DNA of 64,000 bases from Hypomesus transpacificus (Eukaryota > Chordata > Actinopteri > Osmeriformes > Osmeridae), in NCBI RefSeq assembly GCF_021917145.1, contig NC_061076.1, positions 146,501 to 210,500 on the forward strand, written 5' to 3'. Shown piece by piece: positions 7,681 through 54,850 of this stretch. Position 1 is the first letter of the stretch; each line of letters begins with the position of its first letter. Both the position numbers and the translations under genes were made by a program. The notes beneath the pieces are model-generated. The model did not search any database and was not told the origin of the DNA. It saw only the letters and a program-made list of their open reading frames with translations.

Positions 7681-7890
7681 GGTTCCTCACCCCTCCCTCC
7701 AGGTTCCTCACCCCTCCCTCTAGGTTCCTCACCCCTCCCTCCAGGTTCCTCACCCCTCCCTCCAGGTTCCTCACCCCTCCCTCCAGGTTCCTCACCCCTC
7801 CCTCCAGGTTCCTCACCCCTCCCTCTAGGTTCCTCACCCCTACCTCCAGGTTCCTCACCCCTACCTCCAGGTTCCTCACCCCTCCCTCCA
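7681..7890. repeat. 21-bp minisatellite, 10 copies
   Basis: Ten tandem 21-bp units of GGTTCCTCACCCCTCCCTCC plus A, with rare T or A variants. The period is a multiple of three, so long Pro/Ser or Gly/Glu pseudo-frames arise on both strands. Confidence 0.95.
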
Positions 7891-9109
7891 GGTTCCTCTG
7901 ACAAGACACAGAGTCACATCACACACAGGGGATCATGGTAGGATTTTAATTACAGGAATTTAATTCTCAGTTTAATATCAACTGTACGATGTTTCGGAAG
8001 CAAGGACTCCTACAGTCAGACACTTGATTATGTTGTATCATTGCATGTTCATAGACAAATTAGCAAAAATATTTAAATCGTGTTAGAAAAACAAACATAA
8101 ATTACAGATTTGATAAATATTCTACATAAGAAGGTGCTTTCAAGCACAGCTCACAGGAAGTGGACGGGGCTATGGGACGCGGGGTAGGGGGGGGCAGAGG
8201 GGAGACGTGCAGGTTCCAGTGGGTCAGGTCGCTACTGGAGGTCTGGGGGCGGAACCACAGGCTTGGAGGAAGACGAGAAGGCCCTCTTCCTCCCAGAGAA
8301 ACCCTGATGGAGAACGTGTTCCTGCTCTACGGAACAGCTGCCCAGTTCTAGTGATTCTGCCTTTTGAAATGTCACTATCGCAGAGCTAAGGGATGAGTGG
8401 TCGTTAGGGAGCGCACAGCTGGGTTCAGCCTTGACCAGGAAAGACCAGGAAAGACCAGGAAGTGCGAGGAAAGGGAGATGCTTGAGGCTGGTCGGCAGAC
8501 TGTGACGTTAGGATACCTTTACATTAGAGCGCAGGTGTTTACATAGAAGTCAGTGGTGTAGAAGGATGTTTTTGGTCCCACACTGTTTTATGTGTGTCTG
8601 CTTTAGAGATGCTTCACCTCTGTGAACACCCCCCCCCAATCTCCACTGACCAATCAGTCACAAGTAAAGACAGAAAGTGTCACTGCTCTGGCCTATCAGA
8701 ACTGACTAAAAGGTGGGAGGCTTTGGCAATTCGTCATTTGCAGAGCAATGCTACTCATTAAGCACTTAAAGTGACAATCTTTACATCTTTCCATGATTAC
8801 ATCTTTCTTGGGGCTAACTCAACTTGACCTCTAATGTTGGAGATTTGTTTTTTGGCGCCTCTCTCTCTCTCCCTGGTCTTCTTCTGGGGCAGTGACAATT
8901 GTATAAACACCCAGTCAGTAACAAGAAGGACATTTTTTTCTTGATAGATTTAGAATGAACCCTATTAAACACTAACCCTGTATATCTCCGTCCACAGTAT
9001 TTCAGGTCTAACAGGGTCTCTCTCGCTCTTTCCGTCCCTTCTCTCACCATTTCTCTCACCCACACCCCTCCTTCCTGTCCTCTGCGAATCCGCACCCAGC
9101 CCTCTCTCC

Positions 9110-14410: not shown

Positions 14411-23280
<8,870 letters not shown>

Positions 23281-29842: not shown

Positions 29843-29941
<99 letters not shown>

Positions 29942-32900
29942 TTGTAAAAACCTCATAAAGGAAGAAAACAGTGGTGCAGCGTTGCCCAGGCGGCGGGCCG
30001 TAGCCTGCCGCCTCTGTCCCCTCCCCGGTGCAGGTCAGGTGTGTGTGGGGAGGAGAGGTCAGGTGTGGAGCTGTGATCACAGGTCACCTCCGCAGACTGT
30101 AACTCAGATGGAGCTGTGATCACAGGTCACCTCCGCAGACTGTAACTCAGATGGAGCTGTGATCACAGGTCACCTCCGCAGACTGTAACTCAGATGGAGC
30201 TGTGATCACAGGTCACCTCCGCAGACTGTAACTCAGATGGAGCTGTGATCACAGGTCACCTCCGCAGACTGTAACTCAGATGGAGCTGTGATCACAGGTC
30301 ACCTCCGCAGACTGTAACTCAGATGGAGCTGTGATCACAGGTCACCTCCGCAGACTGTAACTCAGATGGAGCTGTGATCACAGGTCACCTCCGCAGACTG
30401 TAACTCAGATGGAGCTGTGATCACAGGTCACCTCCACAGACTGTAACTCAGATGGAGCTGTGATCACAGGTCACCTCCGCAGACTGTAACTCAGATGGAG
30501 CTGTGATCACAGGTCACCTCCGCAGACTGTAACTCAGATGGAGCTGTGATCACAGGTCACCTCCGCAGACTGTAACTCAGATGGAGCTGTGATCACAGGT
30601 CACCTCCGCAGACTGTAACTCAGATGGAGCTGTGATCACAGGTCACCTCCGCAGACTGTAACTCAGATGGAGCTGTGATCACAGGTCACCTCCGCAGACT
30701 GTAACTCAGATGGAGCTGTGATCACGGGTCACCTCCGCAGACTGTAACTCAGATGGAGCTGTGATCACGGGTCACCTCCGCAGACTGTAACTCAGATGGA
30801 GCTGTGATCCCAGGTCACCTCCGCAGACTGTAACTCAGATGGAGCTGTGATCACAGGTCACCTCCACAGACTGTAACTCAGATGGAGATGTGAGCTTAGT
30901 GACATGGCTTCAGACACTGTACGTCAGATATATTTTATACGTAATAGTTGGTTTCTTGTTTAGATAAAAAGTTGAATGATGACAACAAACGAGCCTCTTC
31001 CTCAGGCAGGAAACAGCAGGGCCTCGTCAGGGACAGACGTCCGTGGGAACGAAGAACGCTCCATGTTTTCACAGTTGTAGTTTTAATTGGGTTAAGAAAT
31101 GCCTGGAATCCCCCTGGACCACGTGGCTGTGTTGACCTGGGGTGGGGCCTGGTTCTCACCCGGGGTCAAAGAGCAGGAGGCCACGCCTCCATTTGGGGTA
31201 TAGAGCAGAAGGCCATGCAGATGTGGTTGTCTCTGCTCTTGGCCTCGTGTGTGGATGCCACCGCGAACATCCTGTGTTTCTGGGCCTGCAGTTCTTCATG
31301 TGACGAGTGCATTCCTCTGTTCACCCTCCCCAGACCGGTTTATCACCTCAGTATTTCAGAGAGGAGGGTGGGCTGGACAGTTCGGGAGCTGTCAGTTACA
31401 TGTCTTCATTTCTCCAGGCTGTCGTATTATATTCATGCTACTTTAAGCAACACACAGTATACCTTAACATACAGTCCATAGCTTTCCATACAGCATAGCT
31501 TAGCATACAGTCTCAAGCTAACCCTAGCGCTCTCCATAGCCGTCTACAGCTTGTAAGAGGCCTCTGCTCTGTTGCTAACACCGATCAGGTTCCTTCAGCT
31601 CAGTAAACACCAAACGAGGGCAAGGCTGCGGTTTGTTTTTGTGTTAGCCCACCCACAGAGACCCCCTCAAACCAAACACACACACACACACAGAGACACA
31701 CACACACAGACACACACAGAGACACAGACTCACATGCATGTTACATGTTGCGCCTCTAGCCTAGCCCCCAGCCAGCCTCCTGCTGGAGGAGACAGGCTTT
31801 TATTGAGGGCGTTTCTGTTTGTCGACCAGTGAACATCACCGTGGATGGAACGAAGGGATGTGATCTCAGAGAGAGAGAGAGAGAGAGAGAGGGGAGAGGT
31901 AGAGAGAGGGAGAGAGGTAGAGAGAGAGAGAGAGAGGTAGCTCTTGGCCACAGTCATGGAAAGGGGGAGGGATATTACCTCAGACTGGCAAGGGAGGGAA
32001 GGAGACTGAAGAAGTGGGTGAAAACATCTTAAGACATGGAGAAAAAAAGAAAATAAATCCAAAGTTATATGATTACAGTCGTTTATTTACCCTAATCTGT
32101 GTTAGCTGTATAATGAGCTGAGACCTAAGCCTGTTGGAGTTTTGGTTGCCTTGACAGAGCAACAAAGAGAGGGAGATAAGCAAGAGTGTAATACTCTCAA
32201 GACTGGGATAAGGCCTGGAGGAGATACGGACAGTGAGGTCAGAGGGTGTTGGAGGGAGAGAGAGAGGCCCTTAGAGAGAGAGGGAAAGACACAGAAAGAG
32301 AGAGAGACAGAGAGAGGCCCTTAGAGAGAGAGACAGAGAGAGAAAGAGAGAGAGACAGAGAGTCTCTCAGACAGCAGAGCCAGCAGGAGAACTCTGTTGT
32401 CTGAGGTTCCTTCATCCTCTAGACAACTCTCTGTTTTCTTTTCATTGTTCTTTTAAGAACGTGGAGATCCCCCTCTCCAGACTCTCCACCCTGCCGGACC
32501 CCACTCTCCTTCGCAGGCGTGTGTCCTGCCGTATGAGGTCATTTCCTGTTGTGGAAACAAGGAAATAGTCCTAGCACGGGGGCTGTGGGACGGCAAGTGG
32601 GTAAACCATGTGTCATTCCTCAGGCTATCAGCTCTACCCTGTATCACAGCCCCCCTCCTGCCAGGAGGCGTGGGAGTCGGCCTGGCTTGATTCAGTGACG
32701 GTTCACAGACATGTTCCCCGTGACCATGTGTGTGTCACAGAGTGACCTGCACCAGTGAGAGGGCCAGCTAGAGATGTTTTGGGTTGCTAGTGACTACGGT
32801 GTCTTGTGTTTCAGAAAGATGTCCCAGCCAAGCCGTCGGTGGCGGAACTGGCTGGAAAGTTCAAAGGTCACGCACAACCCATCCCAACTGGAAATGAAGG

Positions 32901-35292
32901 GGTGAGATCTTTGTTGCATTTTAATCTTTGTCTTTCTCTACAGTGTGCCTGGTCTTTGAGTAAGCATTCCTTTTGATGGATGGATGGATCGAATTATTAT
33001 AATTCCTGGAGTTGGTGTGTGTGTGTGTGTGTGTGTTGTGCTGGTTCAGACCCTTGTGTGGGTGTGTGTGATGCTGGTTCAGACCCTGGTGTGTGTGTGT
33101 GTGTGTTTCAGAGTAAGCCTGTCAGGAGACGTCCTCCTCGAACCCTGCAGATCTCCACCAGACCCCCGGGACAGGGGGAGGAGGAGGAGGTGAGAGGGGC
33201 TGGGGAGGAGGAGGTGAGAGGGGCTGGGGAGGAGGAGGTGAGAGGGGCTGGGGAGGAGGAGGTGAGAGGGGCTGGGGAGGAGGAGGTGAGAGGGGCTGGG
33301 GAGGAGGAGGTGAGAGGGGCTGGGGAGGAGGAGGTGAGAGGGGCTGGGGAGGAGGAGGAGGAGGTGAGAGGGGCTGGGGAGGAGGAGGTGAGAGGGGCTG
33401 GGGAGGAGGAGGAGGAGGTGAGAGGGGCTGGGGAGGAGGAGGTGAGAGGGGCTGGGGAGGAGGAGGTGAGAGGGGCTGGGGAGGAGGAGGTGAGAGGGGC
33501 TGGGGAGGAGGAGGTGAGAGGGGCTGGGGAGGAGGAGGAGGAGGTGAGAGGGGCTGGGGAGGAGGAGGTGAGAGGGGCTGGGGAGGAGGAGGAGGAGGTG
33601 AGAGGGGCTGGGGAGGAGGAGGAGCTGGGGAGGAGGAGGAGGAGGTGAGAGGGGCTGGGGAGGAGGAGGAGGAGGTAAGAGGGGCTGGGGAGGAGGAGGT
33701 GAGAGGGGCTGGGGAGGAGGAGGAGCTGGGGAGGAGGAGGATGAGGTGAGAGGGGCTGGGGAGGAGGAGGAGGAGGTGAGAGGGGCTGGGGAGGAGTGGG
33801 GGAGTAACACAAACCAACACTGTACAAGTAATGTCTGCAGGCTTGTTTTTCATCCCCTATTGTGTGTTTCAGAAACCAGCCCTAACCAGCCCACTTCCTG
33901 CCAAGACGAAGAGAAACTCTGCTCTCATTGAGAAACTTCAGGTTGGTGCAAACGTGTTTCGGTTAGAAAGAATGACTCATTACCCTGTCTGAGAATCCCC
34001 TTTCCACCCTCACGTCTTAAGCACTGGAGGATCTGAGAGTGACGGTTTGGACAGGAACTAGCAAGGCAGACCCACTGTGGGTCAGATCTTTTGAACATGA
34101 AGTGAGTCAGTTGTAGTTTGTTTCTGAATAAAAACTAGAGCTTATCAAAACCAGACAGTGCTGCCCCCTGCTGGTTGTGAAGGAGAAGTGCAGTTGCACA
34201 TCATATACTGGGGTGGTTCAGCCTCAGGGTTCAGGTTTATAGTCAAAGTGAGAGCTGCCATTTTCTGCCACAGTCCTTAGGAAAAATAATCTGAAACTCT
34301 ATCTTGTGAAAAACAATGTTGAAGTTTTATCCAGCCTCTCTCTCTCCTGCCTCACTCTCTCCTGCCTCTCTCTCTCCTGCCTCTCTCTCTCCTGCCTCTC
34401 TCTCTCTCCTCTCTCTAGGCTAACCTGGCCTTATCCCCCACCAGCCTCCACCCCTCCCCTAAGAGCCCTGGGCTGAGGCTCCTGCCCCCGTCCTTCATCC
34501 CCCCCTCCCCCTGCTCCATCAGGCCCGTTACCACGACAACGCCAACCTCTCCGGGCGGCATGGCGGGCCTCCCTCGGTCCGGGGGGGACGAGGAGCCCCC
34601 CGCCACCTTCCAGACCCCCGCCTCCCCCACGGAGGGAACCCTGCTGCCCAGCATCAACAAGGTCTGTGTGTGTGAGTGTGTGTATGTCCCAGTGTGTGTG
34701 TGTGTGTGTGTGTGAGCGTGTGTATGTCCCGGTGTGTGCGTGTGTGTGTGTGTGTGTGAGAGCTTCAACCTCAACCGTTCCTGCTGCTCTGTGTCTCCAG
34801 AGTAGAGCCCGTGTCTCCATTCGTCGACGCCCACCCTCCCGGCGACACAGGAAGTCTAGCAGCGGAGAGGAAGTGGGCGGGGCCGAGGGAGAGGACACGC
34901 CCCTCTCTACCCCCGACGGTCCGGAAGAAGGGGGGAAGGGGGAGGAGGTGTTTAAAGGAGAGGAGGAGAAGGAGAAGAAGAAGGAGGAGGAGGAGAAGAA
35001 GGAGGAGGAGAAGAAAGAGGAGAAGAAGGAGGAGGAGGAAGGAGCTGAGGTCGTCTCTTCCTCCAGAGCCGACGCCAACGCGACAGACCCGGGCCCTGCA
35101 CACCCTCACAGACCGACAGACCCAGCAGGGGAGAACCCAGGGGTGAAGACCTCCACAGAGCCTCAGGCAGAGGAGGCCCGGGGGGGGAGGGAGGAGGGGG
35201 AGAGAGGGGAGGAAGGAGGGGAGGGTCCGGGAGAGGAGGCTTCGCCCCAGGCTGGGCAGGTCCCTGGAGAGAGTGGGGAAGGGGCGCTGTGA
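27790..35292 (+). CDS. rcsd1: CapZ-interacting protein (RCSD domain) homologue
   Basis: Six coding exons, all phase 0: 27790..27795 (Met-Glu only), 32815..32901, 33112..33189 (minimal form), 33873..33941, 34419..34661, 34801..35292, giving 324 residues. Resemblance to human RCSD1/CapZIP is clear in order: PSVAELAGKFKG near the N-terminus, SKPVRRRPP, RNSALIEKLQANLALSP, SPKSPGL, and SRARVSIRRRPPSRRHRKSS. The last of these matches the region I associate with actin-capping-protein binding. A long Glu/Lys-rich C-terminus follows. CapZIP binds the barbed-end capping protein CapZ and is a stress-kinase substrate, abundant in muscle. The exon 3 donor lies in a 24-bp minisatellite, so exon 3 may be longer in some transcripts. 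Exon 6 is low-complexity over about residues 205-250. A further C-terminal exon is not excluded. Confidence 0.85.
28610..28685 (+). mobile_element. tRNA-Cys-like SINE head or tRNA pseudogene
   Basis: TAGCTCAGTGGTTAGAGCAC (box A and D-arm), GACTGCAGATCA (anticodon loop with GCA) and GGTTGCAGGTTCAAATACCC (T-arm, box B) resemble tRNA-Cys. The acceptor stem does not pair well and there is no Pol III terminator at the expected place, so it is more likely a SINE remnant than a working tRNA gene. It lies in rcsd1 intron 1. Confidence 0.55.
29515..29795. repeat. About 29-bp polypyrimidine minisatellite
   Basis: Repeats of CCTGCCTCCCCCATCTTTCC and CTCCCTCC, roughly nine units, in rcsd1 intron 1. Confidence 0.9.
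29844..29940. repeat. 97-nt homopolymer C run
   Basis: Ninety-seven consecutive C residues with no interruption, directly after the polypyrimidine minisatellite. The true length may differ, because such runs are error-prone in sequencing and assembly. Confidence 0.9.
30069..30885. repeat. 43-bp minisatellite, 19 copies
   Basis: 817 bp, exactly nineteen 43-bp units, nearly identical. Each unit contains the perfect 12-bp palindrome CTGTGATCACAG overlapping an AGGTCA hexamer, then CCTCCGCAGACTGTAACTCA. It lies in rcsd1 intron 1. Confidence 0.97.
31860..32365. repeat. Scattered (GA)n purine tracts
   Basis: AG-rich simple repeats at about 31868-31937 and 32245-32362, in rcsd1 intron 1. Confidence 0.85.
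33178..33795. repeat. 24/30-bp minisatellite carrying splice donors
   Basis: Units of GAGGAGGAGGTGAGAGGGGC plus TGGG, some with two extra GAG triplets. It starts inside rcsd1 exon 3 and contains 22 GAG|GT(G/A)AGA sites between 33190 and 33776. Spacing is 24 or 30 bp for the first 17, then irregular. The plus-strand frame stays open to 33648 as Glu-Val-Arg-Gly-Ala-Gly repeats. Confidence 0.97.
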
Positions 35293-37530
35293 GATGGGGG
35301 TAAAGAAGACCCCCGATGAAGAGAAGGAAGGCAAGGTGATCTGAACGGTTAAATATCAACTCATCATTAATTAATGTTTCTCAATATCGTAGGGAGAGCT
35401 ATGGACTGTATGCTAAGCTATGCTGTGCTTAAAAGTAGCACAAATCTAATACGACAACTTAGAGGAATGCTTTTTCGAGTGGTGTTTGTGTTCCTCTTCG
35501 AGTACCATTGACCCCCTGGCCGCTTGTCGTCTCCACCACAGCAGACTGAAGACCTGACGGGATCCTACTCACCCTGTCATCCCCCTCCACCTCACCCTGT
35601 CATCCCCCCTGTCACCTCATCCTGTCACCCCGTCATCCCCCCCCCACCTCACTCTGTCTCCCTAACCCTCCTCCTCACCCCTCCACCCCAGGAGAGCAGA
35701 GGGGCAGACTGGTGCTTGTGGCTGTCCAGGCCCCCTCCCAGGCCGCCTCTCAAGCCCCCTTTCAGCCCCCCTCTCAAGCCCCCTTTCAGCCCCCCTCTCA
35801 AGCCCCCCTCTCATGCCCCCTCTCAGGCCCCCCTCTCCCTCTGGCCTCCCAGGAAACACACACAGCTCCGCATGTTAGGACCCGGGGGACCCAAGACCTC
35901 CTCCATCGATCCTGTCTCTTTTTATTTGTATTCTTTTGTGTCTTAAGCAGAGTTCAGATACAGTACTCGTGATTAGACGTTCATTTAATCCACATCTTAA
36001 GATGTGACCTTGCAGGTCTGAAACATGCCAGTTTGGAACTGGAAACCTTCACAACGGCAGACCCCAAACAGTCAAGTTGTATTCTAGAATAGTTTAAAAA
36101 TATCTCTGGTATCTATGTGTCTGAACCAAACATTAGCCTGTGTATTTTTTTCCCTTCATCTTTGGCCAAAAGGACTGTCATTATTTTGTTTGTGAACTGC
36201 TTTTTGAACTGCATTTGATCTAATTGTTTCAGTCATGTGACACTTCTCTGTACCACATCCTTTGCTGGTCTATTTATTACATATGATCTATATTCAGGAT
36301 TATAGGATTTAGTCAAACATTTTACTGTAAGTGAAAGGCTTATGATTCACGTTTCACCAAAGTCGTAGTGTACTACAGTCTCCACAAGGCGGAAGTGTTG
36401 CGGCTTCTTCGCTGCCTCTACAGATTCAGTCGTTAGTTTGAAATTGTGCCAAATACTAATGGGCTTAAATCACCTCAATGTCGTTTTTCTTGCTGTGAAT
36501 TAGGCAGCTTGCTCTCACCCCGAGAGTAATAGGATTATCAAGGACATTGTCCAGTTTTTCTCAGTCAATTTGGCATTTTCACAAACTTTATTTTGTTCTC
36601 AATATGGATGTAACCATCTTAACTAACTGCAAATGTAGCGTCAGTTCATCACACAACAGATCACAATATGATTGATTGCACATCATTAATGGTCTGCTGC
36701 ATCGAGAAAAGTATGTGTAGAAGATGTGCTGCGTGTGTACAGTTAACTTTATTCTGAACACCTGTTCTCATGGTGTTGAGAGCATCAAACTTTGGTTGAA
36801 GGAAAATGTCAAATTGATTGCTGCTCTGGCCTGTAAACAGGCTTTTTAATCCACTGGAAATGACCAGGGATGGTTGTTTAATGCTGGTAATCTGGTTACC
36901 TTTTGTATAAAATTGTTGAAAAAGTAAAATCCAACTTTATCAACGATTGCTTTGAAGTGATTTTTTTTACTTCCTGTTCGCAAACTGCAAGGCCAAATCT
37001 GTATTTTTGTTGCAAGACTGGTTGAAAGAAAGATGATTTAGAGATGGAAAAACCGTGCTGTCTTTACTGTAACTAATGATGTGTGATAAAGTGATTATTT
37101 TGTAATTGATTGTATCGTCAGCAATACGACAAATTGAAATACAGACTGATTCAAGATATATATAGCCTATCTTTTTTGTGTGTTGCTTTTCACCGAATCT
37201 GTGAGAAAGCGCTCAAGCTCCAGAAGAGTATATGACATGTGTTGTGTCTTAAATACACCCAGACCGTGCCAAACTTACGCCGTGTCAACACAAATGGGCT
37301 CACCGTTCCCTGTAGACATCGTTCCGTGCGGTGAGCCATGCTAATCACTGTAAACCCCATTCTGAGCTTAACACATCCAGCACAGACTGACGACAGCAGC
37401 TCGTCAGTGCTTCCTGCACTGAAAGTTCTGCCATGGAAGTTGTTTCTTGACTTTCCTGGTCGAGGTAATCAGTTAGACTGACGAGTGACGTCCGTTTTCC
37501 TGTACAGTAGTTCAAGTTCAAGTCTTTCAT
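35293..37530. other. rcsd1 3' region and intergenic DNA
   Basis: No gene is visible. A C-rich short repeat (CCCTTTCAGCCCCCCTCTCA) lies at about 35750-35845, and the rest is AT-rich unique sequence. No canonical AATAAA stood out, so the end of the rcsd1 transcript is not placed. Confidence 0.45.

Positions 37531-51158: not shown

Positions 51159-54850
<3,692 letters not shown>

Follow-up and report, generated by a model that had tools for sequence, protein, structure and literature searches.

Minisatellites that multiply a splice donor have been reported in at least two human genes. The VNTR of ABCA7 intron 18, which comprises 23.7 copies of a 25-bp unit (592 bp) in the reference and is highly variable among people (about 12–427 copies), begins with the donor GT of exon 18, and this first donor is the canonical one (PMC5954066). 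Retention of one unit was reported at about 2%, and the accessible text names no other downstream donor among the approximately 24 units (PMC5954066). It was also reported that a longer VNTR leads to more exon 19 skipping and is associated with lower expression (PMC5954066). In the minisatellite of human IFI6 (6-16), two downstream repeat units are also used as donors, giving three mRNA species and isoforms (PMC4526556), while the minisatellites treated in the accessible part of a further report lie inside an intron and are not donor copies (PMC12783039).

A donor minisatellite of this known type was found across the boundary between exon 3 and intron 3 of rcsd1 in Hypomesus transpacificus, within the 64,000-nt stretch of contig NC_061076.1 analysed here (the window, whose coordinates are used throughout). 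The array is real and well-formed; the initial annotation had called a series of same-phase donors of this size unusual, and it is indeed rare, but already known from human IFI6 and ABCA7. As far as it is described, the ABCA7 VNTR resembles the rcsd1 array in its approximately 24 copies, in starting at an exon donor and in having a unit that carries a donor GT. However, its 25-bp unit is not a multiple of three and retention of one unit shifts the frame, whereas the rcsd1 unit measures 24 or 30 bp and 17 donors are in frame; moreover, the ABCA7 VNTR was measured in people, whereas the rcsd1 array was read in one assembly. The IFI6 minisatellite is likewise a tandem repeat that supplies several splice donors, but it lies in a different gene and has a 12-nt unit, with isoforms longer by 4 or 8 residues, against the G-rich 24/30-nt unit of rcsd1. 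No prior report of the rcsd1 array was present among the matches listed for a donor-minisatellite precedent or for rcsd1 in fish, in searches that covered little of the subscription literature.

On its predicted product, the gene carrying the array is rcsd1 (CapZIP), an actin-capping partner, as had been proposed: residues 64–180 of the joined exon 2–6 product, encoded by exons 4–6, matched the Pfam family CAP-ZIP_m (PF15255; E=1.8e-10, 41.7 bits, cut-off 28.2), and a PDB search with the exon 4–6 region gave no match up to E=10. The model, on the + strand, joins exon 2 (32815–32901, starting with KDVPAKPSVAELAGKF, phase 0, placed from its splice sites and uninterrupted reading frame, while no exon 1 was located), exon 3 (33112–33189, 78 nt, SKPVRRRPPRTLQISTRPPGQGEEEE, preceded by AG at 33110–33111), exon 4 (33873–33941, 69 nt, phase 0, symmetric), exon 5 (34419–34661) and exon 6 (34801–35292, up to the stop), in a frame that, counted from exon 2, runs for 322 residues before a stop. 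In this model, each of exons 2, 3, 4 and 5 is a multiple of three, and the frame survives skipping of exon 3 or of exon 4. The proposed end of exon 3 at GAG·GTGAGA (the dot marks the junction; first intron base 33190) agrees with the model, in which donor 1 is in phase with exon 4. All donors share the 3′ splice region of intron 3 (33849–33872, +), composed of a branch-like TTCAT, a pyrimidine-rich stretch and TTTCAG. The layout is in agreement with that of human RCSD1, and SRARVSIRRRPPSRRHRK in exon 6, a candidate capping-protein-binding motif, resembles the human site.

All 22 of the GAG·GT(G/A)AGA sites previously listed were recovered, with first intron bases from 33190 to 33776, and the motif was absent from the remainder of the 64-kb window on both strands. 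Consecutive donors are separated by 24 or 30 nt, except for two steps of 47 (33598 to 33645 and 33699 to 33746). TRF reported the array at 33180–33770 (23.5 copies of 24 bp, score 800), and limits of 33174–33796 (+) were set by eye around the 24/30-bp repeat that crosses the junction. Its unit is made of the exon end GGGGAGGAGGAG and the donor with the intron start GTGAGAGGGGCT or, written from the junction, of GTGAGAGGGGCTGGGGAGGAGGAG, in which the intron start comes first, followed by the exon end; GAG triplets precede each junction, and a GGGG run lies downstream from +7. The core CTGGGGAGGAG was counted 24 times, the two donor-less cores, both GAGCTGGGG, being located at 33622–33630 and 33723–33731 (+), where the frame shifts occur; the second is perhaps a copy of the first. 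A special conservation of the donor within units was unsupported, with 22 of the 24 cores retaining it. Under a first-order Markov model matched to the composition of the array, sites numbered 0.42 on average and 4 at most in 2000 runs; chance composition was thus rejected as the source of the 22 sites, which, given also the TRF score, represent one motif copied by tandem duplication. The array starts at the exon donor of the gene model. On the opposite strand of the region (33079–33881, −), three frames are open for 244–257 residues, and 24 acceptor-like CCCCAG motifs follow pyrimidine-rich stretches, as the complement of 24 CTGGGG.

Relative to donor 1, 17 donors are in phase 0, three in phase 2 and two in phase 1. 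The first 17 steps had been described as multiples of three; donors 1–17 (33190–33598, +) do share a frame, but 17 in-phase donors correspond to 16 steps. The frame that enters from exon 3 remains open until the TGA at 33646, as had been stated, and use of donors 1–17 would add at most 408 nt, that is, the 136 residues already calculated. These residues, however, are arranged in units of 8 or 10 (VRGAGEEE or VRGAGEEEEE) and not in the six-residue Glu-Val-Arg-Gly-Ala-Gly unit of the initial annotation. In the model, retention of intron 3 leads to the stop at 33646, and donors 18–22 (33645–33776, +; phases 2, 2, 2, 1, 1) all lead to premature stops.

Donor strength was scored with a consensus matrix (maximum 12.69), on which the 22 array donors obtained near-equal values (9.94–10.1), above those of the donors of rcsd1 exons 2, 4 and 5 (7.62, 5.48 and 5.49, respectively); pairing of the array donors with the U1 5′ end was calculated at –9.6 to –9.7 kcal/mol. 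The GTAAGA at 33675 is present but, contrary to the initial annotation, was not clearly stronger than the others (10.1 vs. 9.94; U1 duplex –9.6 vs. –9.7 kcal/mol). Outside the array, the window contains 13 GT sites (+ strand) and 14 (– strand) that scored at least as high, so that donors of this grade are not rare in themselves.

Predicted RNA structure gave two divergent indications. In the ordinary fold without quadruplexes, donor 1 was the least accessible of the 22 (mean unpaired 0.30), with values of 0.56–0.90 for donors 2–20 and of 0.46 and 0.44 for donors 21 and 22. With the G-quadruplex option of ViennaRNA, the 400 nt that begin with exon 3, which include donors 1–13, were predicted to form 13 two-layer quadruplexes (–323 vs. 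–75 kcal/mol without them); these enclosed the +1 G of 11 donors, all but donors 1 and 8, the last G tract being the –1/+1 pair; this placement is a lead only, the energy model being rough for such structures. Three-layer quadruplexes with loops of 1–7 were absent. Quadruplexes that spare donor 1 while covering 11 of 13 donors could favour donor 1, whereas the plain fold would favour interior donors, in the opposite direction.

The account favoured here, and held as a whole to be rather probable, is an amplification of the junction in which donor 1 is mainly used and array length acts on splicing efficiency. A G-rich stretch of the exon 3/intron 3 junction (about 12 exon and 12 intron bases) would have been amplified by slippage or unequal exchange, leaving nearly every unit as the complete 5′ splice-site cassette observed in the sequence. 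The array shows signs of homogenisation, since its first six steps are all 24 and its longest exact internal repeat, at an offset of 180, spans 215 bp. When introns are gained by tandem genomic duplication, splice signals are likewise copied, but a new intron is created, whereas at rcsd1 an existing junction would have been amplified. By analogy with ABCA7 and IFI6, donor 1, with its 78-nt exon 3, would be dominant, donors 2–3 would leak to a small share, lengthening the product in frame by 8 or 16 residues, use of the deeper donors would be rare and donors 18–22 would be non-productive, most of the extra copies thus being probably little used. These usage figures come from other genes, in human, and their transfer to rcsd1 is an inference. 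Array length would then mainly influence how efficiently intron 3 is removed or how often exon 4 is skipped, in line with the ABCA7 report, instead of measuring out the length of the protein. The earlier proposal that array length could tune splicing is plausible, having been reported for the same architecture in ABCA7 (PMC5954066), although this precedent is human only; the parallel proposal on protein length is weakly supported, with a one-unit donor (about 2%) besides donor 1 in the accessible ABCA7 account and three donors in that of IFI6. A unit that spans the junction, donors in 22 of the 24 cores, their greater strength than those of exons 2, 4 and 5, the in-frame lengths of exons 2–5, with an exon 4 that can be skipped in frame, and the ankyrin-gene array described below, where a junction was amplified with no preserved frame, speak for this account, while the low accessibility of donor 1 in the ordinary fold counts against it. 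Classical competition work between equally strong donors favours the site nearest the acceptor, which would here be the non-productive donor 22, with a 97-nt intron, and also goes against it.

If donor 1 alone were ever used, the array would be inert filler that expanded a short intron to 683 nt. Such a neutral expansion would fit the introns filled or lined by minisatellites elsewhere in the window, for example in the STIM1-like gene (19850–20367) and the ankyrin gene, and the loss of the donor in two cores, which indicates that it was not strictly kept. However, nearby donors of equal strength are rarely fully silent, and a downstream unit is used in both human precedents, as far as these are described; neutral expansion was thus regarded as unlikely, though it deserves to be kept in view.

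The opposite reading, in which many of donors 1–17 are used and produce a ladder of CapZIP forms with 0–136 extra VRGAGEEE-type residues, the range being set by array length, was judged improbable. It would draw on 17 in-frame, near-identical strong donors with no stop before 33646, on the more open interior donors of the quadruplex-free fold and on the three mRNA species of IFI6 (PMC4526556). Nevertheless, just donor 1 and the one-unit donor are named among the approximately 24 ABCA7 units in the accessible text (PMC5954066), the deep donors would require exons of up to 486 nt, and the rough prior of an in-frame open array was estimated by us at 2/9 (a length that is a multiple of three, then two of three frames open). 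A more elaborate version, for which the chances appear slim, holds that the array is a splice ladder that varies genetically: most of the 17 in-frame donors would be used, giving a nested CapZIP set per allele whose acidic linker before CAP-ZIP_m would vary in steps of 8–10 residues, under the control of two-layer G-quadruplexes predicted to reach across the junction with their last G tract.

It is similarly hard to credit that the acceptor-near donors 18–22 are preferred, lowering rcsd1 expression through mRNA decay. All five would introduce premature stops in the model, and the proximal preference between equal donors would direct splicing towards them, but a strong switch of this kind would be harmful and exon definition prefers the 78-nt exon to one of 533–664 nt. 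The reported fall of ABCA7 expression as the VNTR lengthens would also be in line with such a switch (PMC5954066). Finally, an assembly artefact affecting the copy number, or the array itself, is extremely improbable: a 215-bp exact internal repeat could be open to mis-assembly by short reads, and a 100-base gap (19351–19450, the sole N run in the window) and a 97-base poly-C run occur elsewhere in the assembly, but the unit variants (GTAAGA, GATGAG and the two donor-less cores) cluster in the 3′ part of the array and both flanks join the rcsd1 gene correctly.

The rcsd1 array provides an in-frame counterpart of the disease-linked ABCA7 VNTR and a natural test bench for the choice of the spliceosome among 22 near-identical donors of known spacing.

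A second junction-spanning minisatellite was detected by TRF at 52660–52862 on the – strand, where the end ACACACCTG of an ankyrin-gene exon (52852–52987, −) has been multiplied. This exon ends in GGAAACACACCTG·GTACGG, followed by a recurring run of CTG·GT, with eight sites at steps of 26 or 28. As in rcsd1, a tandem repeat covers the exon end and the donor and begins at the junction; unlike rcsd1, there are 8 copies, the donors are weaker (scores of 1.57–6.25) and, in the model, donor 1 continues the ankyrin frame into the next exon while donors 2–8 lead to stops. The gene was recognized by an Ank_2 match (Pfam, E=1.5e-13), and weak PCF11 (E=0.00083) and CCDC90-like (33.3 bits) matches in adjoining exons, both under the Pfam cut-offs, together with the human gene order, suggest ANKRD42. 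Junction amplification thus arises without frame preservation, and the case for a functional maintenance of the frame in rcsd1 is weakened. That donors 1–17 owe their common frame to selection was accordingly unsupported: the 24-nt unit is open in two of its three frames, and the ankyrin-gene array loses its frame. The presence of two such arrays in one 64-kb window, which is not a count, suggests that they may be common, and easily mis-annotated, in minisatellite-rich genomes.

Among ten TRF arrays in the window with a period of at least 10 and a span of at least 200 bp (counted by eye), two begin at a modelled donor and one stops just short of an acceptor (TRF end 20340, exon start 20368). 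In the incomplete gene models of the window, the remaining seven were not tied to exons. A preference of minisatellites for junctions is not claimed, as random placement gives a similar number by a rough mental estimate. When 23 arrays of the window were scored for donor-like motifs (score 7 or more), sets were found at 7681–7898 (n=12, −), 17881–18027 (n=3, −), 35568–35662 (n=3, −) and 52660–52862 (n=8, +, opposite to the ankyrin gene strand), with single sites in 19881–20340 and 53190–53489, and none of these sets was tied to an exon.

The intron of the STIM1-like gene (19850–20367, +) consists mostly of a GATAATGACGGT array and separates two SOAR-coding exons (Pfam, E=4.6e-41 on the joined exons); only 12 of its last 40 nt are pyrimidines, so that the 3′ splice site is without a normal pyrimidine tract. 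The run of 97 C at 29844–29940 is perhaps an assembly or gap-filling artefact. At 30066–30893, a 43-bp repeat reaches 19.3 copies with 98% matches and is thus very young or homogenised.
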